A stretch of 39,637 nucleotides of DNA from a bacterium (GCA_016932575.1 JAFGCO010000040.1:1-39637); one strand, 5' to 3'; counted from the stretch's first letter, positions 5,751-38,087 are shown. The notes: generated by a model from the letters alone, not told the origin. A program made the numbers and translations.

Positions 5751-5889
5751 GGATTTCTCCTTGGTTGAATATCAATCGATTTGGCTCTCTGAATCATTTC
5801 GGGAAATGTTATCATTCATGATCACCGTGTCCCGGACTCATGCGTAATACAGGACGCCCTCCGATGCTCATTAAGAACGGATGATAAAC

Positions 5890-7440
5890 TTATGACGACA
5901 CTCCGCCCACTGTGATTTCTGATACCAGTACGGTCGGCAGTCCCATGGATACGGGAACCCCCTGACCGCCTTTTCCGCACGTCCACCCGCCTTCGGCCAT
6001 TTTCATATCATTGCCCACCATAACGATATTCCTGAGCACTTCCGGACCGTTGCCAATGATGTTGACATCCTTTACCGGCCGGGTAATTTTACCGTCTTCA
6101 ATCAACGCGCCGGATTTCACATAAAACGTAAAGTCGCCGGCACCGATCGCCACTTCGCCATTGGTAAACGCTTCTGCATAAAGCCCTTTCTTGACGCTGG
6201 CGATAATTTCTTCTTTGGTATGCGGACCGTTTTCCATATAGGTGTTCCGCATGCGCGGCTGGACACTGTACCGGAAGGATTCCCGGCGGCCGTTTCCTGT
6301 GGGCTTGACGCCGTAATACCGGGCGCTGATCCGGTCATGCAGATAGCTTTTAAGAATACCGTTCTCGACAAGATATGTTTTCTCCGTATCATTGGCCTCG
6401 TCATCCACATTTAGCGACCCGCGAATATGCGGATTGGTACCGTCATCCACAATGGTGACAAAGGATTCGGCCACCGGCTTGTTGATTTTATCCGAAAAAA
6501 TGGAAATTTTCTTACGGTTGAAATCCGCCTCCATGCCATGGCCGATGGCCTCATGAAGCAGAATACCTGAACTGCCTGCGGCAAGCACGACCGGCATGAC
6601 GCCGGCTTCCGGTTTTACCGCCTTAAACAGGGCGGTTGTTCTCTCCACGGCTTCTGATGCCAGGCGATCCACATTTTCCGGCGTAAAAAATTCGATGCCC
6701 TGACGGCCCGCAAGATCAAAATAGTTGGATTCACGCCGGCCATCCTGTTCCGCCGTGCAGGTGACAATAATCCTTGCCATCGGCCGATAATCATAAACAA
6801 CCCGTCCTTCCGACGTGGCAATCAGAATCATGCTGGTTTCATTGATAAACCAGATATTGGATTTAATCACCCGCGAATCGAGGGCAAATACTTTATCGTT
6901 GATATTCTGAAGATAGGGGATTTTCTGATCGATGCCGACCTGCTCCCAGGGGGTTTCGATCGGATAGTAACTGGGAATATCATGGAGTTTCAACGCCTGA
7001 GGAGGGGCCGTCTTCCCTGAATTGGCAATGGCTGCCGCGGTCTTTGCCGCAAGTTTCATGGCTTTCGGGGACAGTTCTTCGGTGAACGAATACCCGGTTT
7101 GATCACCTTTGAGTACCCGGATGCCCGCCCCGAGGCTTACATCTGTATAAGCACGGTTGACTTCCTTGTCTTCAAGACCGATGGTGTTGGTGACGTTCTG
7201 CTCAAAATACACATCACAATAATCTCCGCCCATGGATAATGCTTCGGCTATCACATCACGAATGATTGCCTCTGTCACACCAAAATGATGATATGCGTCA
7301 CTCAATTGCATATTGTCAGGATCGGGGACGGACAGTGCCCGGGCAGGCTCCGATCTAAAAATAGCAGGAATCGTTGCTGCTGCGATCATGGTCTGCGAAC
7401 TCCTTTTGATAAAATCACGCCGCGTTATGGATGGTTTCAT
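5890..7440 (-). CDS. tldD: TldD-family zinc metalloprotease with Tat signal
   Basis: This 516-residue protein has the TldD active-site helix HEAIGH (His296, Glu297, His301) and the C-terminal GGWTCGKGGQ segment with the conserved metal-ligand Cys (about 488), so it should be the catalytic subunit. The N-terminus, TRRDFIKRSSQTMIAAATIP, is a twin-arginine signal: RRDFIK, then a hydrophobic stretch and a small-residue cleavage region (EPARALS). Classical TldD is cytoplasmic, so this one may be exported folded with its metal. The start has GGGGG seven bases upstream. A promoter and a 7-bp palindrome lie just upstream. tldE follows downstream. Confidence 0.93.
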   Translation of the reverse strand: MKPSITRRDFIKRSSQTMIAAATIPAIFRSEPARALSVPDPDNMQLSDAYHHFGVTEAIIRDVIAEALSMGGDYCDVYFEQNVTNTIGLEDKEVNRAYTDVSLGAGIRVLKGDQTGYSFTEELSPKAMKLAAKTAAAIANSGKTAPPQALKLHDIPSYYPIETPWEQVGIDQKIPYLQNINDKVFALDSRVIKSNIWFINETSMILIATSEGRVVYDYRPMARIIVTCTAEQDGRRESNYFDLAGRQGIEFFTPENVDRLASEAVERTTALFKAVKPEAGVMPVVLAAGSSGILLHEAIGHGMEADFNRKKISIFSDKINKPVAESFVTIVDDGTNPHIRGSLNVDDEANDTEKTYLVENGILKSYLHDRISARYYGVKPTGNGRRESFRYSVQPRMRNTYMENGPHTKEEIIASVKKGLYAEAFTNGEVAIGAGDFTFYVKSGALIEDGKITRPVKDVNIIGNGPEVLRNIVMVGNDMKMAEGGWTCGKGGQGVPVSMGLPTVLVSEITVGGVSS

Positions 7441-20257: not shown

Positions 20258-21502
20258 TTACTCGTATCTCAGAGCCGTAATCGGATCCATTTTGCTGGCT
20301 TTCGCCGCCGGATATACGCCAAAAATGATGCCTACAGCAGCACATACAATAAAACCCAGAAAGATCGTAAAATATGGAATCGCCGCCGGAACAGGAGTCG
20401 CAAGGGCAATCAATTGAGAGAGCCCCACGCCAATCAGAATACCGAACAGTCCTCCCATCACTGAAAGAAAGATTGCCTCAATTAAAAACTGAAGCCGGAT
20501 ATCCGCTCTCCGCGCGCCAATCGCCATGCGGATGCCGATCTCGCGCGTACGCTCACGAATCGATACCAGCATAATATTCATAATCCCGATGCCGGCAACC
20601 AGAAGCGCGAATGAAACAATGACAATCGCACCGATACGAACGACCCGGGTCATGTCGTTAAACGCGCTGATCAGCGTATCACTTGTCCAGATCTCAAAAT
20701 CATTCGGCTCGCCCGGAGGCACTTTACGGATCGCCCGAAGCACACCGATCACCTGCTCCTGGGCTGTTTCCATCATGTCCACACTGGCCGCCTGAACTGT
20801 AATATTCAAAGACCGGTTGGTTCCGTAATACTTTAAAAAAGTCGAAAGAGGAATGGCCACCTTGTTGTCTTCGCTGCCCCCGAATCGTCTCCCTAACTCT
20901 TCGATCGTGCCAATAACCTCATAACGGCGTCCGTCCACTATGATCGATTTCCCGATCGGATCCTCAAAAGGAAACAGGGCATCGACAATATCTTTTCCGA
21001 TAACAGCCACATCACGTTTCTGCTGGACATCCACCTCTGAAAAGGCGCGTCCCTCGTCAATATAATAACTGTTATTGGCAAAAAAATCAGGTGTACCACC
21101 GGCCAGAACATTGGCCGGGCTGGTTTTACGGTCACGATACTTGATAACGATCTCAAAATGCCAGGCTTCTGGCGCGACCCGTTCGACTGCAGGGCAGTAT
21201 TTTTCAATGGCTCTGGCATGCTCCCAGGTAATGTCTTTTCGATTCCGGTATTTATCCCTATCATGATGACCGACATTCACAGGATATTTCTGCACCTGAA
21301 AAACATTCGCGCCCAATTGCTCAATCTGATCATGAATGCTTTTCTGAAATCCCTCAATGAGCGATTGCACACCGATAATGGACATCACGCCGATAATCAC
21401 GCCCAGCAAGGTCAGAAAAGAACGCATTTTATGATTCCGGATCACATCCAGGGCAATGACCACATTTTCTTTCAGCTGGACAGCAGACTCTCTCAGACGC
21501 AT
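20258..21502 (-). CDS. MacB/FtsX-type ABC transporter permease (second copy)
   Basis: This 414-residue permease has the MacB architecture: one membrane helix after a short N-terminus (MRSFLTLLGVIIGVMSIIGV), a large periplasmic domain (about 65-280), and three C-terminal helices with the FtsX signature IMNIMLVSIRERTREIGIRM. It ends in DPITALRYE, the usual MacB-like terminus. It follows the first permease by 17 bases and shares its layout but not close sequence, so the transporter is probably a heterodimer. The ATPase is a separate gene rather than fused as in E. coli MacB. Confidence 0.92.
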   Translation of the reverse strand: MRLRESAVQLKENVVIALDVIRNHKMRSFLTLLGVIIGVMSIIGVQSLIEGFQKSIHDQIEQLGANVFQVQKYPVNVGHHDRDKYRNRKDITWEHARAIEKYCPAVERVAPEAWHFEIVIKYRDRKTSPANVLAGGTPDFFANNSYYIDEGRAFSEVDVQQKRDVAVIGKDIVDALFPFEDPIGKSIIVDGRRYEVIGTIEELGRRFGGSEDNKVAIPLSTFLKYYGTNRSLNITVQAASVDMMETAQEQVIGVLRAIRKVPPGEPNDFEIWTSDTLISAFNDMTRVVRIGAIVIVSFALLVAGIGIMNIMLVSIRERTREIGIRMAIGARRADIRLQFLIEAIFLSVMGGLFGILIGVGLSQLIALATPVPAAIPYFTIFLGFIVCAAVGIIFGVYPAAKASKMDPITALRYE

Positions 21503-21519
21503 AAGTTATATCCTTTAAG

Positions 21520-22755
21520 CTATTCGTATCTCAGGGCTTCAATAGGATTCAGCCTGGCCGCTTTTGAAGCCGGATAAAGCCCGAAAAAGATCCCGATACT
21601 GATGGTAAAACCGATACCGAGAAAGGCCACCCATGCAGAAATATTCACCGGAATCGGTGATACCTGTTTCACCAGAGTGGCGAGACCAATCGAAATGAGG
21701 ATGCCCAAAGTCACTCCGATACTCGAAATAAACATGGATTCCACCAGAAACTGCCAGAGAATCACGCGGCGTTTGGCGCCAAGCGCCTTGCGAATACCGA
21801 TTTCCCGCGTTCTTTCCGTCACTGAAACCAGCATAATATTCATGATACCGATGCCCCCCACCAGCAGTGCGATCGAACCGATTCCGATCAGAACAATCCA
21901 TAAGACTTTGGTGAGATTATTATACACTTCTAAAAGCTGGCTCTGTTCATTCACAGAAAAATCGCTTTCCTCACCCACCCGTAATCCGCGCGCCCGCCGC
22001 ATCAATGCTTCCAGTTCATCTTTCAATTCACCCACAACTTCAGGGCTGAGCGCCTTGGCCTGAATGTCAAGCGACCGGTGCTTTCCAAAGACTTTTAAAA
22101 AAACCGTATAGGGAATCATGACATTATTATCCATGCTGAAATCAAACATCTGGCCCCGTTTTTCCATGACGCCCAAAATACGAAAGGATTGCCCCCCGAT
22201 CTTGATCCGCTTACCTACAGGATCTTTATTCTTGTAAAGTTTATCCGCGACTTCCCATCCAATGACGCAGACATTTCTCCGGTGGTGGATTTCATTATCC
22301 GTAAAAAACCGTCCGAATTCAGGCATGGCATTGGAAGAAACCATATATTTATCGGTCGTACCGTAAATAAAAACACCGCCAAGATCCTCCGTTCGGTATT
22401 TTACGGTCCGCCGCGTCGCCACTTCAGGAACCACCGCTTCGGCCAGGGTAACATACTTTTCCAAAAATTCGAAATGTTCCTTTTCGATTCTGGGCCTTTT
22501 GCGAACCCTCAGCCACTCCTCCCAGCTGGTAATCATCCAGGGGTACCGGCTGACAAATACATTATCCGTTCCCAGAGAAGACAATTCACCGGTGACATAG
22601 GTATTCATTCCCTGAATCACCGAAATAATCACAGTTACCACAACCACGCCGATAAGAATACCTAACGTGGTTAAAACAGACCGCAATCGATTCGCTTTCA
22701 ACGCCTGCGTGGCAATACGGACGCCCTCTCCGAATTCAGTCCAGGAATATTTCAT
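21520..22755 (-). CDS. MacB/FtsX-type ABC transporter permease (first copy)
   Basis: This 411-residue protein has an N-terminal helix (RSVLTTLGILIGVVVVTVII), a periplasmic MacB-like domain (about 60-280), and C-terminal helices containing GIGIMNIMLVSVTERTREIG. It ends in NPIEALRYE. It sits 23 bases after the ATPase gene and 17 before the second permease, in a tight operon. The pair probably transmits ATPase motion to a periplasmic adaptor and TolC rather than carrying substrate through the membrane, as known for MacB. The substrate could be a macrolide-like compound, lipid or peptide and cannot be told. Confidence 0.92.
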   Translation of the reverse strand: MKYSWTEFGEGVRIATQALKANRLRSVLTTLGILIGVVVVTVIISVIQGMNTYVTGELSSLGTDNVFVSRYPWMITSWEEWLRVRKRPRIEKEHFEFLEKYVTLAEAVVPEVATRRTVKYRTEDLGGVFIYGTTDKYMVSSNAMPEFGRFFTDNEIHHRRNVCVIGWEVADKLYKNKDPVGKRIKIGGQSFRILGVMEKRGQMFDFSMDNNVMIPYTVFLKVFGKHRSLDIQAKALSPEVVGELKDELEALMRRARGLRVGEESDFSVNEQSQLLEVYNNLTKVLWIVLIGIGSIALLVGGIGIMNIMLVSVTERTREIGIRKALGAKRRVILWQFLVESMFISSIGVTLGILISIGLATLVKQVSPIPVNISAWVAFLGIGFTISIGIFFGLYPASKAARLNPIEALRYE

Positions 22756-22778
22756 GGATTTATTTCCCGTTTAACTGG

Positions 22779-23456
22779 TTATCTTGCTTCATCCCGTTCA
22801 ATGTGCCCGTCCCGCAGACGAATGATCCGGTCCGAATGTTCGGCGATATATTCTTCATGGGTCACCAGAATAATAGTATTGCCGCCGTCATGCAGCGTTT
22901 CGAACAGATCCATAATCTCGTCACCGGTCCGGGTGTCCAGATTTCCCGTTGGTTCATCCGCAAGAATAATGGACGGATTGTTTACCAGGGCCCGGGCAAC
23001 TGCCACCCGCTGGCGCTGACCGCCTGAAAGCTCATTGGGCCGGTGCTGCATCCGGTCTCCTAATCCGACCTTGGTCAGCGCTTCCGCAGCCAGGCCATGT
23101 CGCTGAGAAGAAGGTGTCCCATTATAAATCAGGGGAAGCTCCACATTATGCAGGGCCGAGGCCCGGGGCAACAGGTTGAAATTCTGAAACACGAATCCGA
23201 TTTCGCGGTTGCGTATCTCGGCCAGATTATCGTCATTCATGTCACTGACATCAGATCCGTTCAGACAATAGGTGCCCTCGGTGGCCGTATCCAGACAGCC
23301 CAGCAGATTCATTAAAGTGGATTTACCGGAACCGGATGGTCCCATGATGGCCACATACTCGTTTTCATCAATGTTCAGGTTGATGCTCCGCAGCGCATGC
23401 ACGGTTTCCAGGCCCAGATGATAATCCTTTTTAATATCTTTTAATTCAATCATCAT
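22779..23456 (-). CDS. LolD/MacB-type ABC transporter ATPase
   Basis: This 225-residue ATPase has Walker [11 protein letters not shown]-loop [10 protein letters not shown], signature [16 protein letters not shown], Walker [12 protein letters not shown] and the switch histidine in LVTHE. This composition is typical of MacB/LolD/FtsE-like ATPases that energise FtsX-type permeases. ATG codons at 23456 and 23453 are both possible; GGAGAA lies upstream. The adaptor gene ends 26 bases before and the first permease follows after 23 bases. Confidence 0.95.
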
Positions 23457-23482
23457 AAAATGGTTCTCCTTCGGCGGACGCC

Positions 23483-24739
23483 TTAATCCGTTTCTTCTTC
23501 ACGTACCTTCTGTTTCATTGAATTGTCCACAGTCACGGCATCACCATCCTTCAACTGTTTCGAAAGAATGCGGTAGGGACCGCTGACAATGTCACTGCCC
23601 TCTTCCAGGCCGCTTTTAATTTCCCATTCCGTATCACTGGAGATGCCGGTTTTGACTTCCACCTGATGCGCGATTCCCTCTTTAACCTGAAATACCACTT
23701 TCACAGGTTCCGCTTCATCCATTTGCTTCTCCTGATCTTTTTTCTCAGTAGAATCGGGCGCGGTCTTTTCATTTTCCGCCCGGGCGGCCAGGGTGTCTTT
23801 CTGTACCGGTTTTCTCATGGTAACGCATTGAATGGGCAATTTCATTACATCGTTCAGAGATTCAGTAATCACATCCACAGTGGCCGACATGCCGGGACGA
23901 AGATTCTTCGGCTTTTGAATCATGCCCACTTTCACCAGAAAGTTGGTCACTTCCTCCTGTGTGCCCGAACCCGTGGTCGTGCCGCTGTGCGCTATTTCCG
24001 TGACAATGCCTTTAAATGTGGTATCCGGAAACGCGTCCACCAGAATGCTGGATGTATCTCCCAGACTTACGTGAATCACATCGTTCTCATCGATTTCCAC
24101 TTCGGCCTGCATTTTTGTCAAATCCGCAACCAACATAATCACATCCAGTGTGAACTGGGATCCCATGGCCATTTCACCCTCTTTCTTATCGAGCCGGGTC
24201 ACAATACCATCCATGGGCGATTTAATCGTGGTTTTTGACAGGTAGTCCTGCGATTGCCTCAGCGATGCTTTGGCCTGCTCGACTGTGGATGCAGCCTGTT
24301 CAAACGTGGATTTTGCGATCTCCAGCTCCGCGTCGGAGATCAGATTGTCAGCGTGCAGTTTTTTCGCCCGTTCATATTCATTTTTGGCTTTATTATAGCC
24401 TGCCACAGCATAATCCCGGTTCGATTGTGACTGTTCAACCGACGCTTTGTATTCTTCGGGATCCAGCTGCACCAGAAAATCACCGGCGCTGACCGAATCT
24501 CCTTCATTGACACCGAGTTTGATGATTTGTCCGCTGACCTTGGCGGAAATTTTCACTTCGATTTCAGGCTCAATTTTTGCCGGGCCGGATACCGTGGATA
24601 CAAGACGGCCGCGGCTGACTTTTTCGGTCTGCACCTTGATGCCTTCCTTTTTGCGGGCCAGTGTGGCAATAACGATGAACACAACGAATAAAATAAAAAT
24701 TCCAAATATAATCAGTTTCTTTTTCTTTGATTTTGCCAT
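23483..24739 (-). CDS. MacA-like periplasmic adaptor (HlyD/RND family)
   Basis: This 418-residue protein begins with a membrane anchor ([20 protein letters not shown]) and then has the adaptor layout: a lipoyl half ([20 protein letters not shown]), a long helical hairpin (about 95-165, rich in Ala/Gln/Lys), the second lipoyl half ([20 protein letters not shown]), and beta-barrel and membrane-proximal domains. A Glu/Lys-rich insertion near 325-345 is unusual. It should link the MacB-like permeases to the TolC protein encoded just before it. GGAGG lies eight bases before the ATG. Confidence 0.94.
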
Positions 24740-24776
24740 CTTGAGCGCCTCCTTGTCTCATTCTCACATCAGGGAC

Positions 24777-26102
24777 TTATTGCGATAATTCTCCCATCGC
24801 ACGCTTTAATTCGGCCACAGCCAGTTTATAATCATATAATGCCTGAATTCGATTGCTTTTCGCTTCAGTGTAACTTGATTGCGCGTTGATCAAATCGAGC
24901 ATGGTGCCCGCACCCAGGTGATATTTTTCTTTATTTAAACGCAGTGTTTCGTCTGCAGCCGCTTCAGCGTCTTCGGTGACACTGATTTTCTTTTTGGCCT
25001 GCTGCACACTGAAATAGGCCTGTTTCACACGAAGATCCACCTGGCGTGTGTAATAATTGAGCACTTCACGGGACATTTTATAATTCAGTATGGCGCTTCC
25101 CATCTGCGCGCACCTTGAAAATCCGGTAAATATGGGAATGGAAAGCGACACACCCACAGACCAGTTATAATTATCGTCCCTTATGTGTTTGATTTCATTG
25201 AAATCTTGGTGATTCCAGGAATACCGGTAGGATAATGACACCCGCGGCAGATACTGGCTGGCCGCCATCCCGATATAGGTCTTGGCGCCGTCCACATCCG
25301 CCTTGCCTTTCAATAGAATGGGATGCCTTACAGAACTGATTTGCACGGCCTGCTCGAAATCGACATTGACTTCCGGCAGTTCGAGATCGTCGACCACCTT
25401 TGTGTCCGCGTCCATATCCATGCCCAGCACCTGGTTCAGGCTGGTCCGGGCGATCGAAAGATTATGCTGCGCTTCGATCAATGCCAGCCTGGCGTTTTCG
25501 AGTTCAACTTTAAACTGAAGCATTTCGGATCTCGGCGCGGTGCCCACCTGATATCTGGCTTCTGCCAGTTTAAAAGTTTCTTCCGAAGACTTCATCGATT
25601 CCTGGCTGACTTCCAGCAGTTTTTCCGCTTTCAAAAGGTTATAATATTGCTCCTTGACCGCATAGATGATCTGCTGTCTCGTGTCTTCAAACTCGAATTT
25701 CGCGCTGCGCCTGCCTGCCAGGCTGTTTTTCATGTTAAAATAATTATAGCCGCCGCTGAACAGCGATTGTGATACCGTGAAAACAGAAGAAGAAAACCAG
25801 GATTTCTCTAATTCGTTTTGTTCGGGTTTTTTCAATCCCGTGACCGGATCGACCCACATTGTGGTTGAAGGGCCGGTCACGGAATGATTATAGCCCAAGC
25901 CTAATTCTGCGCTTGGCAGAAAGTTCGAAAACGCGACAATCACATCCTTACCTGCAATGGCTTTCGAAAACCGGCTCTGGGCCAGCTGCGGATTGTGCTT
26001 TAAAGCAATCTCCATACATTGATCCAGGGTCATGGTTTCGCCGGCCGTGACTGCCAGCGGGATCATCATACTGAGTATAAAAATAACCAGATACTTTCTC
26101 AT
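24777..26102 (-). CDS. TolC-family outer-membrane efflux protein
   Basis: From the ATG at 26102 (GAGG seven bases upstream) the protein has 441 residues and a clean signal peptide (MRKYLVIFILSMMIPLAVTA). A longer reading to 26267 overlaps the Yip1 gene and adds no signal, so I reject it; the ATG at 26108 is a close alternative. Two TolC-type repeats are visible, each with coiled-coil Ala/Gln/Glu-rich helices and beta segments (AEARYQVGTAPRSEML; KEKYHLGAGTMLDLINAQSS). It should form a trimeric outer-membrane channel for the MacA/MacB-like components encoded downstream. Confidence 0.94.
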   Translation of the reverse strand: MRKYLVIFILSMMIPLAVTAGETMTLDQCMEIALKHNPQLAQSRFSKAIAGKDVIVAFSNFLPSAELGLGYNHSVTGPSTTMWVDPVTGLKKPEQNELEKSWFSSSVFTVSQSLFSGGYNYFNMKNSLAGRRSAKFEFEDTRQQIIYAVKEQYYNLLKAEKLLEVSQESMKSSEETFKLAEARYQVGTAPRSEMLQFKVELENARLALIEAQHNLSIARTSLNQVLGMDMDADTKVVDDLELPEVNVDFEQAVQISSVRHPILLKGKADVDGAKTYIGMAASQYLPRVSLSYRYSWNHQDFNEIKHIRDDNYNWSVGVSLSIPIFTGFSRCAQMGSAILNYKMSREVLNYYTRQVDLRVKQAYFSVQQAKKKISVTEDAEAAADETLRLNKEKYHLGAGTMLDLINAQSSYTEAKSNRIQALYDYKLAVAELKRAMGELSQ

Positions 26103-26137
26103 AGCCATGCCTCGCTTTATTCCTTGTTGAAAATGAA

Positions 26138-26857
26138 TTATATAAAATCTCCAAAAAAGTGCACGATCACGCTGCTGATCACAATCCAGATAAACCAGAC
26201 TGAAAACGCGACTGTCAATCCATCTGTTTTCTTGATTTTCGCGACCACAGCCAGCCCCATCGCCCATAGCACCACCTGCCAGACCATAAAGGGATCCATT
26301 TTGCTCGCGATATGATAAAGGATCGAAGGTTTCTCACCGATCGGATGTACCTTCATAAATGCGGCCAGAGAGGTGTATATGCCATGCGGTGTATTTTCCA
26401 AAAAAACAAGAACGGATTTAAGAATGCCGCCGATCATGGTGACCAGACTGCTCCATGCCACGACACCCAGAATCTGGCTGAATTTCGCTTTTCCGTCCAT
26501 CAGGCTGTTGCTGCCCGCCATCATCAATGCAGCGGTCAGCAGCCACGCTGCCATAATTAAAACAGGTGTGATCGCTATCCCGAAATATCGTCCCGGGCCT
26601 TCAATACGGGCCTTTGCCGCTTTGATTTGCTCTTGGGTCATGAATTTGTTCGCTTCGACTTTCTGTTTCTGATAATCCACATAAATATCCATCAGCCAAA
26701 TTTGAGCCCCAATCGCGACAATGATAACAAGAATTAAAGGCACCCACCAGAGGGGCCTTTGCTCGACGCTTTCAAATGTCTCTTCTGGAGACATAAAAAT
26801 GTTGCCGATGCGCCCAAACACGCCCATGGATTTGCTGCTGTCTGACCCGTTTTCCAT
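26138..26857 (-). CDS. Yip1-family multi-pass membrane protein
   Basis: This 239-residue protein has the Yip1 pattern: an N-terminal soluble segment (GRIGNIFMSPEETFESVEQR), then five probable membrane helices, beginning WWVPLILVIIVAIGAQIWLM. The loop between helices 1 and 2 is charged (KQKVEANKFMTQEQIKAAKA). AAGGAGGG stands before the ATG. It is the first gene of the efflux operon; TolC follows after 35 bases. Bacterial Yip1 proteins have no defined role. The context suggests a membrane accessory of the exporter (inference). Confidence 0.88.
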   Translation of the reverse strand: MENGSDSSKSMGVFGRIGNIFMSPEETFESVEQRPLWWVPLILVIIVAIGAQIWLMDIYVDYQKQKVEANKFMTQEQIKAAKARIEGPGRYFGIAITPVLIMAAWLLTAALMMAGSNSLMDGKAKFSQILGVVAWSSLVTMIGGILKSVLVFLENTPHGIYTSLAAFMKVHPIGEKPSILYHIASKMDPFMVWQVVLWAMGLAVVAKIKKTDGLTVAFSVWFIWIVISSVIVHFFGDFI

Positions 26858-27101: not shown

Positions 27102-27905
27102 TTAAAACAGGCTGAATAAAGGCAGGGTCACCAGCAAATTCCGGAAAAAATGATACACAATCGAGGGATAAAGCGATTTGGTGTACTGGTACAGAAAGAA
27201 GGAGAGGAGCTGGGAGGGGAAAATAATCATGAATCTGATTATTGTTGTTTTATTTAAATGAATCATATCCCCAACATTATGACCAAATGTAAAAATTAGC
27301 CCCGTAATCACAAGAGCCCACAAAATTCCAATTTTGTTTCGAAATGCAGGGTAAATGATACCAGTAAAAAGGATTTCTTCAAGGAATGGGGAAAAAATGA
27401 GTACCGTGACTAAGTGGGGGATAAAATAAATAAGTATGCGGTAAATATCATGTTTGTAAATGGTATATTTTAAATAATAAGGTGCCTCGATTTTAAATAA
27501 GGGATCAAGCGAAGAATTATTTAACAATAACAAGTAGAATAGAAGGATTAAAATAGGTAATACAGCAGCAAAAGAAATAAGAATCGTCTTCGCATCACTA
27601 CTAAGGTCACGTGCCAATCCAAGGGAATACTGGTTGATCTTACCTGATTTGATAATATAAAATATCATTAAAATAATAAATAGGTTAATCTGGCCGCGCA
27701 TGTAATAAATCGGGAAAAAAGGACTTGTGGGATTGATGACAGGAATAAAATGATCGATAATAACAAATAAAAGCGTAAAAAGAGACAAAAAAACAGCCTC
27801 AGAAAATGACCATTGGATGTGTTTGAGTTGACTGTAATGATTATTAACCTTTTGTCTGGTTTGTAGGATTGAATTTATAAAATTCATTCTTATAAAATCT
27901 TTCAT
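27102..27905 (-). CDS. CPBP-family intramembrane metalloprotease
   Basis: This 267-residue protein has about seven to eight hydrophobic segments and the three CPBP (CAAX protease / bacteriocin-processing) motifs: the glutamate pair in SPFLEEILFTGIIYPAF, the histidine in IFTFGHN, and the C-terminal YHFFRNLL. The usual Arg of the EExxxR motif is replaced (EEILFT), so activity may be altered. In bacteriocin loci such proteins often serve as immunity factors or in peptide maturation. It is the last gene of the AT-rich peptide island, 140 bases past the peptide gene, behind a hairpin. No strong ribosome site is seen; ATGs at residues 1 and 7 are both possible. Confidence 0.85.
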   Translation of the reverse strand: MKDFIRMNFINSILQTRQKVNNHYSQLKHIQWSFSEAVFLSLFTLLFVIIDHFIPVINPTSPFFPIYYMRGQINLFIILMIFYIIKSGKINQYSLGLARDLSSDAKTILISFAAVLPILILLFYLLLLNNSSLDPLFKIEAPYYLKYTIYKHDIYRILIYFIPHLVTVLIFSPFLEEILFTGIIYPAFRNKIGILWALVITGLIFTFGHNVGDMIHLNKTTIIRFMIIFPSQLLSFFLYQYTKSLYPSIVYHFFRNLLVTLPLFSLF

Positions 27906-27984
27906 GATTATAAAAATAATTAAAATAATTGACTTAATTAATTTATTAAAAACAGAAACTAATCAATTTTATCAATAATAAATA

Positions 27985-28025
27985 TACAAGTACTGAGAAG
28001 ATTTTAATGCCCCTCAGTACTTGTA
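27985..28025 (-). terminator. 13-bp stem hairpin after the peptide gene
   Basis: TACAAGTACTGAG (27985-27997) and its exact complement CTCAGTACTTGTA (28013-28025) flank a 15-base loop. It starts about 20 bases after the peptide stop on the minus strand and is followed by a T-rich stretch (TATTTATTATTG). It probably ends or attenuates transcription so that the peptide is made in excess of the CPBP protein. Confidence 0.65.
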
Positions 28026-28045
28026 CTAGATTAAACTAATTAATA

Positions 28046-28228
28046 TTAACCATGTGTTATTGCATCAATATCATGAAAATCAGGAGGATTATCATGAGTT
28101 AGCTTATGACTCATATATACTCCCCATGCAGCACCTATCAATCCACAATCAATTGCAAGGACAGCTAAAAAAAAGGCCATACTGCCCCCATTTACTGAAT
28201 TCATTTCATTCAATGTCATTTTTTCCAT
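28046..28228 (-). CDS. Double-glycine-leader peptide, candidate bacteriocin or peptide signal
   Basis: This 60-residue peptide is read from the ATG at 28228, preceded by AAGGAG seven bases upstream; a GTG-started extension to 28264 contains that ribosome site and is rejected. Residues 1-15, MEKMTLNEMNSVNGG, are a classic double-glycine leader with the Met/Leu, Glu and Val spacing recognised by C39 peptidases. Cleavage after GG would release a 45-residue core. The core has a hydrophobic helix (AFFLAVLAIDCGLIGAAWG) with a GxxGxxxG zipper, as in class IIb bacteriocins, followed by a polar tail with four His and several Asp. One Cys rules out an internal disulfide. The C39 exporter gene lies upstream. 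Activity is untested. Confidence 0.82.
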   Translation of the reverse strand: MEKMTLNEMNSVNGGSMAFFLAVLAIDCGLIGAAWGVYMSHKLTHDNPPDFHDIDAITHG

Positions 28229-28262
28229 TTTATTTCTCCTTATTTTTTTTTGAATGCTACCC

Positions 28263-28307
28263 ACGGCAAAATGTATACTTGGTGCCGTTAACCATACGTT
28301 CCGGAAC
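28263..28307. promoter_or_regulatory. Palindromes upstream of the peptide gene
   Basis: ACGGC (28263-28267) and GCCGT (28284-28288) bracket a GTATAC-centred spacer, and a ten-base palindrome GTTCCGGAAC lies at 28298-28307. The patch is visibly richer in GC than the island around it and stands 35-80 bases before the peptide ATG, a plausible operator zone for the island's AraC-type regulator. Confidence 0.35.
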
Positions 28308-28380
28308 CGTTGGTTTTTAATTAATTCCCAAGTTTGTTTTATTCTTTAGAAAGTTCACCCTATTAGATCTAAAAGACTTT

Positions 28381-28551
28381 TTAAGAACAACTGATGAAAA
28401 TAAAATGTACAATCATCATCACCACACAAACTCCTATAGCAACTTCAATGATTATTAATATCGCATATAATATAGATATTCTGTCAGTTTTGAATAAGAC
28501 ATTTGTTAAGATCGCACACCATGAAATCTGAAGAAGATTAAAATTATCCAA
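28381..28551 (-). CDS. Possible small hydrophobic peptide
   Basis: The minus frame downstream of the exporter is open for about 75 codons. With a TTG start at 28551 it gives 56 residues, LDNFNLLQISWCAILTNVLF at the start, then one long hydrophobic stretch (ISILYAILIIIEVAIGVCVV) and a terminal FISCS. There is no ATG start and no good ribosome site. It could be an unrecognised membrane immunity peptide or just AT-rich open frame. The whole 28229-28611 gap otherwise contains only the palindromes. Confidence 0.25.
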   Translation of the reverse strand: MDNFNLLQISWCAILTNVLFKTDRISILYAILIIIEVAIGVCVVMMIVHFIFISCS

Positions 28552-28611
28552 GCAACCATATATATTGGGTGAATAATTTTTGAATATAAATAATTTAGTT
28601 TAAAAAGTTTA

Positions 28612-30819
28612 TTAAAACGCCTTTACCCTTTGATATTGATTTGCATTTCTTTGGATCAATCGAGTTTGTATTTCAAAAAATTGTTTAAACTGACTCATAT
28701 CTTGCTTTAACAATTTAAAAACACAACCTGCTTCGTCAATGCCATCATTTCCAATGTGAAATAAATAATCTGCTCTAAGTAGTAGATTGATATCATGAGA
28801 GATTAAGATGACTATATTCTTTCGGGAGTAATCTTGAATAATGTTAAAAATAATCTCTTTTGTTTCAATATCTACTGATGATAAACCCTCATCGATAATC
28901 AAGACTTTTGGTTTTCTTAGAAGTGCTCTACATAATCCGACAAGCTGTCTTTCACCGCTTGAAAGATGTCGGCCATCCTCACCAAGTATTGTTATAATTC
29001 CATATGGGAACTTTTCAATAATTGCATCAAGCCTAAAAGGTTTAAGTAAGACCTTAATTTCATTATAACTACTAACAGAGCGTCCACATAATATATTTTC
29101 ACCCAATGTTCCATTAAAAATTTTACATTCCTGATCCACTACAGCAATACATCGACGAATATCATCGCGATTTATCTGTTCAACTGGTTTGCCATCAAAT
29201 CGTATCTTTCCAGTACAATAAATATATTTACATAGAAGCAAATTTATCAATGTACTTTTTCCACTTCCATTTGAACCCCATAATCCATATAATTTTCCTG
29301 ATTCAAATCGTAGTGATAAATTTTGAAAAAGTATTTTTGATTTTGGATATGAAAAAGATAATGCATCAATCTCAATATTATTTTGAATCGTTTGAATATT
29401 ACTTCCATTTTTAAATTCTCGTTCTATTAAAAGCAGATCCATCAACCGATGGATTGCAACACGTGCACCTTCTAAAGATACAATCGATTTAATTAAAGTA
29501 TTTATTGAAGGTAATAAATAAGAAAATAACGAATAAACAGCAATCATCCGTCCAAGCATAATTTCACACTTCGCTACCAAAAATGCTCCCATTGTGACAG
29601 TCCCAACCAAAAGTAAAGCCATACTGGATTCGGAAAATAGGTTCACTCTTAATTGAAAGAGACCAAAATTCTGTAATGCAGATTGAAACAAATCAAATTG
29701 CGTTTGATTTCGAAGAATAGCGTCGTGTTGACCATTATAATTAATCAAAGTATCATACCCTTGAATACTATCAATATATGTCGATTTTAAATTAGCGTGG
29801 GTACGCATTGTGGTATATTGTTTTTCTCTAATCTTACGTCCCATATAAAATACCATAATTGAGTAAATTGGTAGAACCGGTAGGGCAATCAATACAAGTT
29901 TTGTTGAGAAATAAAACATTAATAATAATGATCCAATAATAACAAGCCCATCTATAACAACTGAATTGATTAAAAGAAGAATTGATTCCTGAATTTTCAA
30001 ACTATCATCAAGTCTTGAAGTTATATCTCCTGTTTTCCTGCTATCAAAGAAAGTTTTTGGCAACAAAAATAAATGGTGCAAAAAATCATTGTTAATCTGT
30101 GTACTAATGCCTTTATTTAAAATTATAAATATCTTTGTACGAATAAATCCCATTATTGCTCGAATTAAGAGAACAAATAAAAGCAATATACCTGTCCAAA
30201 TAATCATTGGTATCGATTTTTTTGGAATAAAATAATCAATAACTAATTGAATAGCCTTCGCGGGTATTAAGTTCAAACCTGCACACAGCAACCCGATAAA
30301 TAATGTTTGTTCCAACTGAATGGAATGGCTTACTAAATAAGGTTTAAACCATTTCCACCAGTTTGTTTCAAGATCATTAAGTAAATTACTATCAGGAATC
30401 AATAGTATTACACATTTACTCTTCCAGATAGATAAAAAGACCATTTTATTTATCCAATGCAATCCTTTGGCAGGATCGCCTAATAATAATTTATCCTGCG
30501 TTATACGATAAATCACAACATAATGCTGATAACCATTATATTCTACATGAGCAATACAAGGCATTTTTTCGCGCAATAATTCTTCATATGACCCTTTTGC
30601 CCCCCAAGCTTTAAATCCTATTCTATTTGCTGCATTAACTATATCAACCAATCGCGTACCTTGTCTGTCAGTATGACAAAGTTCTCTTAAATAGACAATG
30701 GTACTGTTACCCTTATAGAATTTAAGAATACTCAGTAGGGCAGCAGGTGCACAATCCTGTTGTTCATATTGCCGAATAACAGGATATTTTTTTGAATAAT
30801 ATAATATTGAGAAAAGCAT
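28612..30819 (-). CDS. Peptidase-containing ABC exporter (C39/PCAT)
   Basis: This 735-residue protein combines three parts. An N-terminal C39 peptidase (about 12-135) has catalytic Cys23 in QQDCAPAAL, His99 in QHYVVIY and Asp115 in GDPAKG. Six membrane helices span about 160-445. A nucleotide-binding domain follows, with Walker A GSNGSGKST near 518, signature LSSGERQL near 620 and Walker B VLIIDEG. Such proteins cut double-glycine leaders and export the core peptide in one step, and the GG peptide is encoded just downstream. In Gram-negative bacteria they usually work with an HlyD-type adaptor; none is in this island. Codon use is AT-rich, unlike the flanking operons. The start has only a weak upstream GGA. 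Confidence 0.94.
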   Translation of the reverse strand: MLFSILYYSKKYPVIRQYEQQDCAPAALLSILKFYKGNSTIVYLRELCHTDRQGTRLVDIVNAANRIGFKAWGAKGSYEELLREKMPCIAHVEYNGYQHYVVIYRITQDKLLLGDPAKGLHWINKMVFLSIWKSKCVILLIPDSNLLNDLETNWWKWFKPYLVSHSIQLEQTLFIGLLCAGLNLIPAKAIQLVIDYFIPKKSIPMIIWTGILLLFVLLIRAIMGFIRTKIFIILNKGISTQINNDFLHHLFLLPKTFFDSRKTGDITSRLDDSLKIQESILLLINSVVIDGLVIIGSLLLMFYFSTKLVLIALPVLPIYSIMVFYMGRKIREKQYTTMRTHANLKSTYIDSIQGYDTLINYNGQHDAILRNQTQFDLFQSALQNFGLFQLRVNLFSESSMALLLVGTVTMGAFLVAKCEIMLGRMIAVYSLFSYLLPSINTLIKSIVSLEGARVAIHRLMDLLLIEREFKNGSNIQTIQNNIEIDALSFSYPKSKILFQNLSLRFESGKLYGLWGSNGSGKSTLINLLLCKYIYCTGKIRFDGKPVEQINRDDIRRCIAVVDQECKIFNGTLGENILCGRSVSSYNEIKVLLKPFRLDAIIEKFPYGIITILGEDGRHLSSGERQLVGLCRALLRKPKVLIIDEGLSSVDIETKEIIFNIIQDYSRKNIVILISHDINLLLRADYLFHIGNDGIDEAGCVFKLLKQDMSQFKQFFEIQTRLIQRNANQYQRVKAF

Positions 30820-30978
30820 TCCATTTTCTATATTTTTTGAATAACCATTAAAATTAATAATTATACAAATATAATTTTATTTTTATTTATTTTTATAATC
30901 TAATTATTAATTTATTATTATAAATAACGATTTTCAATAGCGATTATTCGAATTTAATTCCGTTTTTTTGCAGTATTT

Positions 30979-31743
30979 TTACTTTTTCAAAAAGTATCGC
31001 CACATTGTTTTTCTACCTTTTATCTTAATCTCCTCACGAACTGATGTAGGAGATTTTCCAAACAATCGATGAAACATCTCATTAAAACGTCGTTGATCAT
31101 TAATTCCAATTAAATATGCTATTTCCTTTATACTATAACCATCGTTTTCCATTAGATGCATTGCATGTTGCATCTTTAACAAGTCTAATAATTTCTTTGG
31201 ACCAAAAGGATAATATTTTCTAATTTCTTTTGTTATTCTATAAATTGGGATACCCAAATATTTTGCAATATCCTTAACAGATCTTAGGTTTAAATAATTC
31301 TGTTCTAAAAATCGAATTGTTTCTCGAGCCAATGGTGAAAATTCATTAACATTAAAATCAAGATTATCCAAAGATAGCTGTAATTGTCGTTTAAAATATA
31401 TATTTTCAATAACTTTCATTAATATACAATCAATATCCTGAATAGAAACCCAATATTGAATTCCTATTTCACCACAATATCGAATGAACTCATAATGTTC
31501 ATCAATGATCACAGCAATAAAAGGAATATTTGAATAATATCGTTTTAACTTAAAAATGTGATATGGAGCTATTTGACTATTTTTTTTAATTTGGAATATA
31601 ACACAAATTATGTCTTTTGTTCGAATAATATGATTCGCAACACGAAAATCAGAACAATGGATACATGAATAAAATTCGCCAATATAATTATCTATCTTTT
31701 TAAAAACAGAAAGATCCGAGAATACTAAATAATGGCATTTCAT
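30979..31743 (-). CDS. AraC-family regulator with degenerate receiver-like N-terminus
   Basis: In this 254-residue protein, residues about 150-245 form an AraC/XylS double helix-turn-helix: SVKDIAKYLGIPIYRITKEI for the first, YSIKEIAYLIGINDQRRFNE for the second, then FHRLFGKSPTSVREE. The N-terminal 120 residues alternate short hydrophobic strands and helices in a receiver-like order (HYLVFSD, DIICVIFQIK, PFIAVIIDEH, GIQYWVS), but the phosphoacceptor Asp expected after the third strand is absent. It may therefore sense something other than phosphorylation, such as a peptide (inference). It is the first gene of the AT-rich peptide-export island, 159 bases before the exporter, and probably controls it. 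Confidence 0.85.
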   Translation of the reverse strand: MKCHYLVFSDLSVFKKIDNYIGEFYSCIHCSDFRVANHIIRTKDIICVIFQIKKNSQIAPYHIFKLKRYYSNIPFIAVIIDEHYEFIRYCGEIGIQYWVSIQDIDCILMKVIENIYFKRQLQLSLDNLDFNVNEFSPLARETIRFLEQNYLNLRSVKDIAKYLGIPIYRITKEIRKYYPFGPKKLLDLLKMQHAMHLMENDGYSIKEIAYLIGINDQRRFNEMFHRLFGKSPTSVREEIKIKGRKTMWRYFLKK

Positions 31744-32054
31744 TATAAAAAAATATTAGTTTATCACTATCTAATCAATTAAATAAGACAATCAATAAAA
31801 CATTCACAATATTGTATTTTAAAATATATAAAAATAGAAGTATTATTGCGTTATAATAACTATTATTATAAAAACAATCAAGTATTTTTTAAATTTAAAC
31901 GGATAATATAATAAATATCACGAATAATAAGAAGATATTAATAAATAATACGTTTAAAAATACTAAATATCAAGTGAAAGATAAGAAATGTGTTTTATCG
32001 ATTGATTTTTTCTGATTATCATGAAACGAATATTAACGTGTCTTTTAAAAGCTG
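31744..32054. other. Very AT-rich gap upstream of the regulator
   Basis: These 311 bases are strongly AT-rich, with long runs of A/T and no open frame of note. They mark the right border of the peptide island and should hold the regulator's promoter, but low complexity prevents a meaningful box assignment. Confidence 0.4.
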
Positions 32055-33119
32055 CTATTTGATGTTCGAGATAATAGAATCCTTCGTTGCAGAGCTCTTT
32101 TTTATCAATTGAGAAAGTGTCGATAATAACTTTGAGCGGCGGTCTGAGTCTATCTGTAGTTTCAACGCGATTTCTCCGCTGGCTTGATCCAGGGAATCCA
32201 GTCTTCGGTTCAGTACATTCAGCAGGATCCTCAATTCCTGGACGATCGGACTATCGGCATGCTCATCACCCGCTTTTAATAACCAGCTATTTAAATCATT
32301 GATGAGATCGTGCAACTTCTGCCTGGTCTGACTGGTTATTTCGTCTTCAGATCGTAATTTACCAATCTCGTTGTTCATGCCTTCAGCAGCACAACCCAGA
32401 ACATGGAAAACGAGAATCTCCTCTTCCGGCACTGAAAGGCTGCCGAACTGATCGCGCACTGCAATGATCGCTTCTTGAGAAATATCGCCGGTTGCATCAG
32501 ATAATAACACACGACGTTTAAATTCCTGCACCGCTATAGAAGATTTGCGCCTTGCGGCAGGAGACAGTAGATTACGTATTCTGTGGTGTTGGTCTGTAAG
32601 TTTTGCGTTATTGTATTGAGGTTCCTTGAGCCCGGGAGATGTGATTTTATCATTATTTTCATCGTTTCGATTCTGAGCATAGTTGACCCTGTTTTGATTT
32701 TGGTCTGAGAGTTCTTCTTGTGAGGTCGGATCCCCTGTGATTGTGAGCACACCATCGAGGGTAGCATTGCCCTGAATATCCACATCGGAAAAGCAGTAAG
32801 AGCAGGTTTGTCCGACTTGAACATCTGAATCCACAAACTGATATTCCGTTCTGGATGAGGCATTTCCATGCCCCTTAAGCTCTCCTTGGGTTTGAGAAGA
32901 GTCTGTTGCCTTCCACATCGAATTTCCCTCGATTCTTCGTCCCGGCTTAAAACCAAAACTGTCTTTTTCACTTTCTGAGAACCTCTCAAGCACAGTGTAT
33001 TTTTTTTCTGCCCGGGCAGAAAAGGAACTCTGTTCAATTGGCAATGCGCCCTCACCGGATGCTGTGAACATCATTATCATTAAAAGAGAAATGGTGATAC
33101 AGTATTTAAAAAGTATCAT
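32055..33119 (-). CDS. Secreted protein with degenerate 'ESETDNLGF' domain and helical C-terminus
   Basis: This 354-residue protein has a signal peptide (about 1-24), with GAGGTG before the ATG. Residues about 26-130 align along their whole length with the domain shared by two neighbouring secreted proteins: SSFSARAE, SESEKDSFGF, LKGHGNASSRTEYQF and YCFSDVDIQGN match SFSAR, TESETDNLGF, LKGQGNTSSQTEYSF and YRLSDVSTKG. Key aromatic and ERS positions are lost. A polar Asn/Gln-rich linker leads to an all-helical region (about 185-354) I do not recognise. Unlike its relatives it has no NPFNP sorting module, so it may be a remodelled or decaying copy. Confidence 0.75.
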   Translation of the reverse strand: MILFKYCITISLLMIMMFTASGEGALPIEQSSFSARAEKKYTVLERFSESEKDSFGFKPGRRIEGNSMWKATDSSQTQGELKGHGNASSRTEYQFVDSDVQVGQTCSYCFSDVDIQGNATLDGVLTITGDPTSQEELSDQNQNRVNYAQNRNDENNDKITSPGLKEPQYNNAKLTDQHHRIRNLLSPAARRKSSIAVQEFKRRVLLSDATGDISQEAIIAVRDQFGSLSVPEEEILVFHVLGCAAEGMNNEIGKLRSEDEITSQTRQKLHDLINDLNSWLLKAGDEHADSPIVQELRILLNVLNRRLDSLDQASGEIALKLQIDSDRRSKLLSTLSQLIKKSSATKDSIISNIK

Positions 33120-34625: not shown

Positions 34626-35630
34626 TTAATGCATAAGAACGGCTTTCTGTTTTCTGATTTCAGAATCTGTTTTCAGGACAATCAGATACGTACCGCTTGC
34701 CATCGGATTGCCCGCCCTGTCCTGACCGTACCAGTAAAGTGTGTAGCTGCCGGCCTGCTGGTTCTCATTTGTCAGTGTTTCCACTTTCCTGCCTATAAGA
34801 TCGAATATATTAATTTCAACAAAACCCGGTTTTGAAAGATGATAGCTGATCTTTGTCTGCGGATTAAACGGATTGGGAAACGGCTGATCAAGCACTGTCA
34901 TTTCCGGCGCATCCGGAAGGTCAATCCGTATCATATCATAGATGTTCACATCGCCTCGGGTGTTCACATCACTAAGCCGGTAAGTATAGATTTGACCCGG
35001 CTGAATGGTTTCGTCAAGAAAAGAATAATCGGTACGCTGAGAAGTGTTGCCCTGACCTTTCAATGCATCCTGTGTCTGGTATGAAGCGATTATTATCCAG
35101 CCTGAACCATTGTTGAAGGAAGAGGCGCGTTCCAGAATAAAGCCAAGATTGTCAGTTTCACTTTCTGTGGTCCATTGAATGAGAATGCCGCAGGGAACCG
35201 GTTTCGCAGAAAATGAGCTCAGGGTAACAGGCAGCGATGCATCGGTGGTGAATTGCCAGGTGCCTGAATAATCGCCAGTGCCTGACACGTTTGTACCGCT
35301 GACATGCCAGAAATACGTGACCGCTCCGGAAAGACCGGGAACAGTATAGGTCGTCCCTGTCAGTCCGCTTTCATCAGCTAAGGTACTGCTGAAATTAGAC
35401 ACTGTTGAAACCTGCAAATTGTATGAGGCCGCGTGATCCACACTGTTCCAGGTGACATCCGAAGAAAGGACGTCGGTGGCCCCGTTGGCCGGACTGTCTA
35501 ATGTCGGCGCGGCCGGCGGCATAGAGGTCAATGAGCCGGCTGATGATACGCCTGAGCCGGTATCGGCAAGAATCGTATGCTCTGTGGTTAAAATCAGAAC
35601 AACAAAAAGAAAAATGATTGATTTATGCAT
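34626..35630 (-). CDS. Secreted fibronectin-type protein with NPFNP C-terminal sorting module
   Basis: This 334-residue protein has a signal peptide (1-22). A fibronectin type III-like domain (about 38-130; PTLDSPANGATDVLSSDVTW) is followed by the domain shared in this region (about 135-240; SSFSAKP, TTESETDNLGFILERAS, YRLSDVNTRG), then the FlgD-like C-terminal module (about 250-334; QPFPNPFNPQTKISYHL, GTYLIVLKT). The last type resembles T9SS-associated sorting domains of FCB bacteria, so it is probably secreted or surface-attached. It is encoded upstream of the FISUMP gene with a 60-base gap. Confidence 0.9.
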   Translation of the reverse strand: MHKSIIFLFVVLILTTEHTILADTGSGVSSAGSLTSMPPAAPTLDSPANGATDVLSSDVTWNSVDHAASYNLQVSTVSNFSSTLADESGLTGTTYTVPGLSGAVTYFWHVSGTNVSGTGDYSGTWQFTTDASLPVTLSSFSAKPVPCGILIQWTTESETDNLGFILERASSFNNGSGWIIIASYQTQDALKGQGNTSQRTDYSFLDETIQPGQIYTYRLSDVNTRGDVNIYDMIRIDLPDAPEMTVLDQPFPNPFNPQTKISYHLSKPGFVEINIFDLIGRKVETLTNENQQAGSYTLYWYGQDRAGNPMASGTYLIVLKTDSEIRKQKAVLMH

Positions 35631-36956: not shown

Positions 36957-38087
36957 ATGAAAAAGGTTAAAATTTATATTCTTCCTGTAGTCATTTTGGG
37001 TATTGCACGTTTTGTTTTTGCGCAAGACATTATTTTCGTCAACGGCGCCAATGCAGCCCTTAATTTCCAGCAGTCTTCACCCTCGCCTCCGGAAAGCAAT
37101 TGGCCTTTCGGTCAGTTCACTCTTAGATCAGCTCCAGTACCGTCGCCATTAAGTTCGGTGACTGTAACTTTGGGAGGCACGTACGATCCGGGCGATCTTC
37201 AGTCCACACCTTTTCAGCTTTATGCCTCGAACACCAACGACTTTAGCAGTGCCTCTGCCCTGGGCAGCAGTGTGGCCGATCCGGGATCGGGCAACGATGT
37301 CACGTTCACAGTGAACGATATTATACCAAGGGGAAATCGACATTATTGGGTGACAGCCGATATTTCTGCATCCGCTGCTGTAGATGACAATATCAATGGA
37401 ACTGTCAGTGATGCTGGTGATTTGAATGTTGCCGGAACGATGAGTGGTGCATCCAGTTATGGCAAATTGAATGCAGGAACAGATGTTTCATTGCCTGTCG
37501 GGCTGGTTTCTTTTTCTGCCCGTGCTGAGGCACGTTCCATTGTCCTGAACTGGATCACTGAGAGCGAGACAGATAATTTGGGTTTCATTCTCGAACGTTC
37601 TGAAGAAGACATCTGGACTGAAATCGCTTCGTATAAAAGCAATGACGTGCTCAAAGGCCAGGGCAACACCTCAAGTCAGACAGAGTATTCCTTTACGGAT
37701 AAAACTGTGGAATCTGGAAAAAAATATACTTACCGTCTGTCCGACGTGAGCACCAAAGGCGGGATCACGGTGTATTCGCCTTTATCCATTACAATGGACA
37801 ATCTGCCTGAGGCCACTGAAATGAAGAAAGCCTATCCAAACCCCTTTAATCCAAAAACATTTATCAGTTATCAGTTAAGCAAAGACACGCGTGTTGAAAT
37901 TTCTGTTTTTGATCTGCTGGGACGTCGCTTGAGAACACTCCACGACGGCCCTCAATTTGCGGGGAGTTATCAAGTTTACTGGAGTGGGACGAATGAGAAT
38001 GGCATCAATGTGCCGAGTGGTGCATATATCATTCGCATGCAGACGGACAGGATCACACAGGTTCAGAAGGTCTTATTCATGAAATAG
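36957..38087 (+). CDS. Secreted protein with beta domain, shared domain and NPFNP sorting module
   Basis: This 376-residue protein has a signal peptide ending FVFAQ. Residues about 24-175 are a beta-rich domain (PVPSPLSSVTVTLGGTYDPG, FQLYASNTNDFSSASALG) that I do not recognise by name. Residues about 178-285 are the shared domain in its best-preserved form (LPVGLVSFSAR, WITESETDNLGFILERSE, LKGQGNTSSQTEYSF, YRLSDVSTKG). The C-terminal 90 residues are the FlgD-like sorting module (YPNPFNPKTFISYQL to QKVLFMK). GAGGAGGG four bases before the ATG fixes the start. It is probably a surface or secreted protein. Confidence 0.9.
   Translation: MKKVKIYILPVVILGIARFVFAQDIIFVNGANAALNFQQSSPSPPESNWPFGQFTLRSAPVPSPLSSVTVTLGGTYDPGDLQSTPFQLYASNTNDFSSASALGSSVADPGSGNDVTFTVNDIIPRGNRHYWVTADISASAAVDDNINGTVSDAGDLNVAGTMSGASSYGKLNAGTDVSLPVGLVSFSARAEARSIVLNWITESETDNLGFILERSEEDIWTEIASYKSNDVLKGQGNTSSQTEYSFTDKTVESGKKYTYRLSDVSTKGGITVYSPLSITMDNLPEATEMKKAYPNPFNPKTFISYQLSKDTRVEISVFDLLGRRLRTLHDGPQFAGSYQVYWSGTNENGINVPSGAYIIRMQTDRITQVQKVLFMK

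Follow-up and report, generated by a model that had tools for sequence, protein, structure and literature searches.

The four genes at positions 27102-31743 on the minus strand are best explained, with moderate confidence, as a cysteine-reduced, bacteroidetocin-like bacteriocin locus that contains a CPBP protein as its probable immunity factor. The window is an entire contig of 39.6 kb from the genome (4.4 Mb in 72 contigs) of an uncultured FCB bacterium, whose phylum relatives belong to candidate division KSB1. The anatomy of the locus, the family of its leader, the kinship of its exporter, a gene remnant and a set of missing genes were established computationally. All four open reading frames are intact, and their ends and strand agree with a preliminary description of this DNA. 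The features are as follows.

27102..27905 (-), CPBP/Rce1-like membrane protein (PF02517 2.5e-14, 53.8 bits compared to a cut-off of 22.4)
27984..28026 (-), strong hairpin 3' of the peptide stop codon (17-bp stem, MFE z-score -6.5)
28046..28228 (-), GG-leader peptide gene (60 aa; leader PSSM 32.8 bits)
28049-28183 (-), peptide core (45 aa, single Cys at core position 13)
28184-28228 (-), peptide leader MEKMTLNEMNSVNGG (15 residues, ends with Gly-Gly)
28235..28241 (-), Shine-Dalgarno AAGGAGA, read from the sequence 6 nt upstream of the peptide ATG
28384..28599 (-), membrane-protein gene remnant (last ~65 codons; matched in the window at 3e-9 by an HMM from relatives)
28612..30819 (-), C39-peptidase ABC exporter of the PCAT type (domains: Peptidase_C39 3e-31, ABC membrane, ABC ATPase)
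30979..31743 (-), AraC-type regulator (HTH_18 1.1e-14; N-terminal region receiver-like)

The island is compositionally foreign. Its GC content (27-32 kb) is 0.292, compared to 0.435 (sd 0.023) in 284 sampled 5-kb windows of the same genome, which corresponds to a z-score of about -6; none of the 284 has a GC content below 0.36. GC3 values are 0.18-0.37 in the island genes versus 0.44-0.57 in four flanking genes. The initial observation of four genes on one strand in DNA richer in AT than its neighbours holds for reading frames, Pfam domains, GC content and GC3. A chimeric contig is unlikely because both island borders lie within one contig with host-like flanks; an assembly error may be present at the site. 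Convincing insertion marks (a tRNA or flanking repeats) were not found around the island. Of the horizontal acquisition proposed earlier, the foreign composition stands, and a distant donor is not supported: since the exporter is nested in a KSB1 clade, the island may have been passed on between members of the phylum or have become low in GC through local drift.

The leader was scored with a PSSM built from 48 leaders that occur beside related exporters, the leader of the window being left out. Among 6,262 Met-started frames from 405 kb of the genome it was the best with its 32.8 bits, the runner-up reaching 6.3 bits, and true leaders score in the same range (leave-one-out median 37.4). The peptide frame is, judged by its leader, evidently no chance ORF, and it encodes the one detectable GG peptide of the genome. 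The core includes GLIGAAWG, the GxxGxxxG motif noted at the outset; its N-terminal half is hydrophobic, and its C-terminal half is polar and acidic with a tail rich in His and Asp. Inspection of the other frames did not support the idea that this tail is a frameshift product. The match to Bacteriocin_IIc (0.0017; PF10439, 18.8 of the 27.1 bits needed) is below the cut-off, as is that to TIGR03949 (17.3 bits; curated cut-off 21.5). The core had not been recognised in the preliminary description, and convincing relatives were found neither in 82 genomes of the phylum (weak matches only, at 0.004 or worse) nor in plasmids and viral contigs. The hairpin 3' of the gene is terminator-like or may serve as a 3' stabiliser.

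The exporter is the only C39 protein of the genome. It combines the C39 residues Cys, His and Asp with membrane and ATPase domains, as is characteristic of peptidase-containing ABC transporters. The residues C23, H99 and D115, which had been reported as intact, are so and are invariant across the exporter alignment; the ABC signature is LSSGE in place of LSGGE. PCAT1 (4ry2; 3e-86 over residues 8-717) and ComA (2e-72) share with it a full-length match and the catalytic triad, but are Gram-positive transporters with other cargo. Of 81 other genomes of the phylum, 13 encode exporters with 37-44% identity; further ones were found in Ignavibacteria. In the tree, a long branch (1.2) within the KSB1 group (97% SH-aLRT) leads to the exporter of the window; this branch and the LSSGE signature would fit relaxed constraint as well.

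In KSB1 and related genomes, most complete loci follow one plan: an exporter, a membrane protein, often MauE, a thioredoxin-like protein, and one or two GG peptides. The membrane protein (~220 aa, weakly Yip1-like) directly follows the exporter, and the thioredoxin-like protein, a thiol oxidoreductase, has a CxxC pair; both genes are also present in the Bacteroidota relatives. Five long helices are predicted for the membrane-protein family (pLDDT 92), which matched no solved fold with E up to 0.001. Next to most complete related exporter loci there are GG peptides whose 15-residue leader is of the type found in the window. This recurrent pairing of exporter and GG peptide speaks for the peptide in the refutation test proposed in the preliminary description.

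The preliminary gene inventory was incomplete with respect to this plan, having missed the conserved Yip1-like/MauE/thiol-oxidoreductase cassette of the relatives. It also overlooked the remnant, which lies in the 350 bp separating the exporter from the peptide gene and is the best match in the whole genome to the membrane-protein HMM (2.5e-7). The short ORF 28381-28551 was rejected both as a further peptide gene and as what is left of MauE; it matches the membrane-protein family at 3e-9 and MauE at 0.6. An intact gene for the five-helix protein was not found anywhere in the genome. The profile that finds the thiol oxidoreductase beside the relatives' exporters gave no match in the whole genome, and a search of the window gave no MauE. 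The accessory genes have been lost in the lineage of the window, one of them leaving the remnant.

HlyD and TolC genes were not found within the island. Directly downstream of it, an operon with host-like GC content (20258-26857, minus strand) encodes Yip1, TolC-type, HlyD-type and MacB-type (FtsX) proteins. Its Yip1 protein (26138-26857) was dismissed as the missing membrane protein: its match over the genome is 0.004, its GC content is host-like, and it belongs to this TolC/MFP/MacB operon.

The loss of the redox gene was compared with the cysteine content of the cores in 49 loci, the window included. In all 44 loci that include an oxidoreductase gene, the core contains at least two Cys; fewer than two occur in three of the five loci without it, among them the window (Fisher 5e-4). 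With only two independent losses and two exceptions (L093 and L113), the tie between redox gene and paired core Cys is suggestive only. The cores of the nearest relatives are hydrophobic throughout and have a Cys near both ends, for example at positions 5 and 47 or 6 and 37. The C-terminal Cys column is nearly invariant, and the window is the exception. The three cores without any Cys (L074, L103 and L117) come from Chitinophagales loci in which no oxidoreductase was detected; L074 is cut by a contig end. The Bacteroidota loci (L060, L103, L119 and others) represent a broad family of GG peptide, membrane protein, thiol oxidoreductase and C39 exporter with very diverse cores. The co-occurrence of redox genes and paired cargo Cys would provide a simple genomic rule for predicting disulfide-bonded GG peptides in the FCB group.

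What the relatives encode next to their exporters corresponds to the gene set of the gut bacteroidetocins (Coyne et al. 2019, PMC6671954), whose four-gene region includes genes for a thiol oxidoreductase and a five-TM protein. In E. coli, these four genes are sufficient; in Bacteroides, the activity is attenuated when either accessory gene is deleted, and the roles of the two accessory proteins were left open there (PMC6671954). Common to bacteroidetocins and the window are a small one-peptide locus in the FCB group, a precursor with a GG leader of 15-16 residues and a core of about 42-48 (15 + 45 in the window), and a C39-ABC transporter adjoining the peptide. The accessory genes are present in the nearest relatives of the window, where the five-helix family was equated with the published TM protein by gene set and helix number, whereas the window retains a remnant only. 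Three defining features are absent: the five-TM gene, of which the window has only the tail; the thiol oxidoreductase of most bacteroidetocin regions, which has no match in the whole genome; and a peptide with at least two Cys, the core having one. The locus is therefore not classed as a bacteroidetocin locus, and it may work like one. Furthermore, it contains additional CPBP and AraC genes. Bacteroidetocins kill Bacteroidetes through BamA. A literature search on KSB1 gave no report of bacteroidetocin-type cassettes, which the loci described here extend to KSB1 and Ignavibacteria.

The CPBP protein is Rce1-like, and it retains the EE, FxxxH and HxxxN motifs. In place of EExxxR it reads EExxxT, with Thr replacing the Arg. 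Relatives of the protein were not found elsewhere in the phylum at 1e-8. CPBP genes are absent from the cassettes of related exporters, one separate CPBP motif occurring near the L087 exporter, and CPBP was rejected as a conserved part of the system in the phylum. CPBP and the full-length regulator are local additions, since neither belongs to the cassette in the other genomes of the phylum.

On the Phocaeicola salanitronis plasmid pBACSA02, a CPBP gene (BLASTP 6e-06) adjoins genes for GG peptides, C39, HlyD and TolC. Bacteroidales plasmid loci of this type thus combine GG peptides, CPBP and a C39 exporter as the window does, and no TM or oxidoreductase gene was found in them, likewise. Unlike the window, they have their own HlyD and TolC and several peptides, and their exporter is a distant match only. 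CAAX/CPBP proteins have been suggested as bacteriocin self-immunity factors (PMC8692603). Given this proposal and the pBACSA02 neighbourhood, immunity is a better guess than maturation, and the CPBP protein is, by analogy, probably a self-immunity protein of the producer. The Abi/CPBP self-immunity proteins (Kjos et al. 2010, as cited in PMC8692603) share with the protein of the window an Rce1-like domain beside a bacteriocin-type gene; the protein of the window differs in having EExxxT versus EExxxR, and its immunity role is putative.

The assignment of the regulator to the AraC type was confirmed by its HTH_18 domain. Its predicted structure is confident in the HTH half only, the N-terminal half being too poor for naming a domain. 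Relatives of the protein are few; the best match (35%, 5.5e-30) belongs to a genome of the same order and is encoded beside a redoxin and two small Cys-rich peptides whose N-termini are signal-like. Such surroundings are seen at L152 (G005:C225, 5735-8896), where a relative of the window regulator has as neighbours a 6-bladed beta-propeller protein, a small membrane protein, a redoxin and two Cys-rich peptides of ~78 aa with N-termini of the signal-like type; this locus may be a peptide system of a similar kind that uses Sec export. HTH_18 proteins also flank two other KSB1 cassettes. Both findings favour a regulatory tie to peptide systems, and the AraC-type protein is a probable local regulator.

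For cleavage, export, outer-membrane passage, killing, immunity and regulation, we infer the following mechanism. The C39 domain would bind the 60-residue precursor via its 15-residue leader (hydrophobic M-15, M-12, M-7 and V-4) and cut after Gly-Gly, and the ABC exporter would release the 45-residue peptide. In the relatives, the core is hydrophobic and rich in Gly and Ala, and a disulfide that joins the Cys near its two ends probably closes it; the thiol oxidoreductase encoded next to it would form this bond together with MauE, the five-helix membrane protein assisting. In the lineage of the window, redox and helper genes were lost, the peptide being a linear one-Cys form. Passage of the outer membrane might proceed via the neighbouring TolC-type protein. 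The most likely target of the mature peptide would be the envelope of related bacteria; the CPBP protein would most likely protect the producer, and the AraC protein would control expression. We regard it as possible, though somewhat doubtful, that the locus has evolved away from disulfide dependence, i.e. that the oxidoreductase, the five-TM gene and the Cys pair were lost together, that the linear peptide with its His/Asp-rich tail still works, and that CPBP immunity was added. If so, this form would tell which cassette parts can be dispensed with, and for what reason. As a natural experiment, the locus bears on what the thiol oxidoreductase and the five-helix protein do.

Because deletion of the accessory genes attenuates bacteroidetocin activity in Bacteroides, the reduced locus may also be weak or dead. 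The main rival is a decaying locus that has lost its membrane-protein, MauE and thiol-oxidoreductase genes and whose exporter and peptide are being lost in turn, with no active product. The remnant between exporter and peptide, the requirement for the absent genes for full activity in Bacteroides, the long exporter branch, the LSSGE signature and the missing C-terminal Cys all point in this direction. However, the remaining four genes are intact and catalytic residues are kept, the peptide gene shows a good ribosome site, its leader is of the family type and a strong hairpin lies 3' of it, and the joint loss of Cys and redox gene resembles adaptation more than random decay. We consider decay rather unlikely.

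It is still far less probable that the peptide is a signal (pheromone) inducing the locus via the AraC-type regulator instead of a toxin. The receiver-like region of this regulator would suit such a role, and C39 exporters such as ComA process pheromones too, but the island has neither a histidine kinase nor a peptide receptor, the core is 45 residues long and hydrophobic in one half, and the cores of close relatives are long, hydrophobic and Gly-rich and accompanied by the bacteroidetocin gene set. A second maturation protease instead of an immunity protein is an unlikely role for CPBP, and one compatible with the rest of the preferred reading, the bacteriocin locus. The active-site Glu and His motifs are kept and the gene comes after the peptide gene on the same strand; the Arg of EExxxR is replaced, however, and related exporter loci without CPBP still have GG peptides, so CPBP is not needed for GG processing. 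The proposal of a bacteriocin or signalling peptide in the preliminary description holds in so far as an FCB bacterium here encodes a GG peptide together with a C39 exporter; the loss of accessory genes was not mentioned in it.

Some further features of the window were noted. The GC content is 0.14-0.18 in the intergenic regions 30820-30978 and 31744-32054 on either side of the regulator gene. Three related surface-protein genes are located at 32055-33119, 34626-35630 and 36957-38087; the first, adjoining the island, matched nothing in Pfam and is unrelated in its C-terminal half, and the other two are of the FlgD/Por-secretion-tail type. A TldD/PmbA metallopeptidase pair at 4428-7440 on the minus strand, 20 kb off the island, has host-like GC content. 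The TldD/PmbA family is known from the maturation of microcin B17; here, the pair probably has an unrelated housekeeping function.
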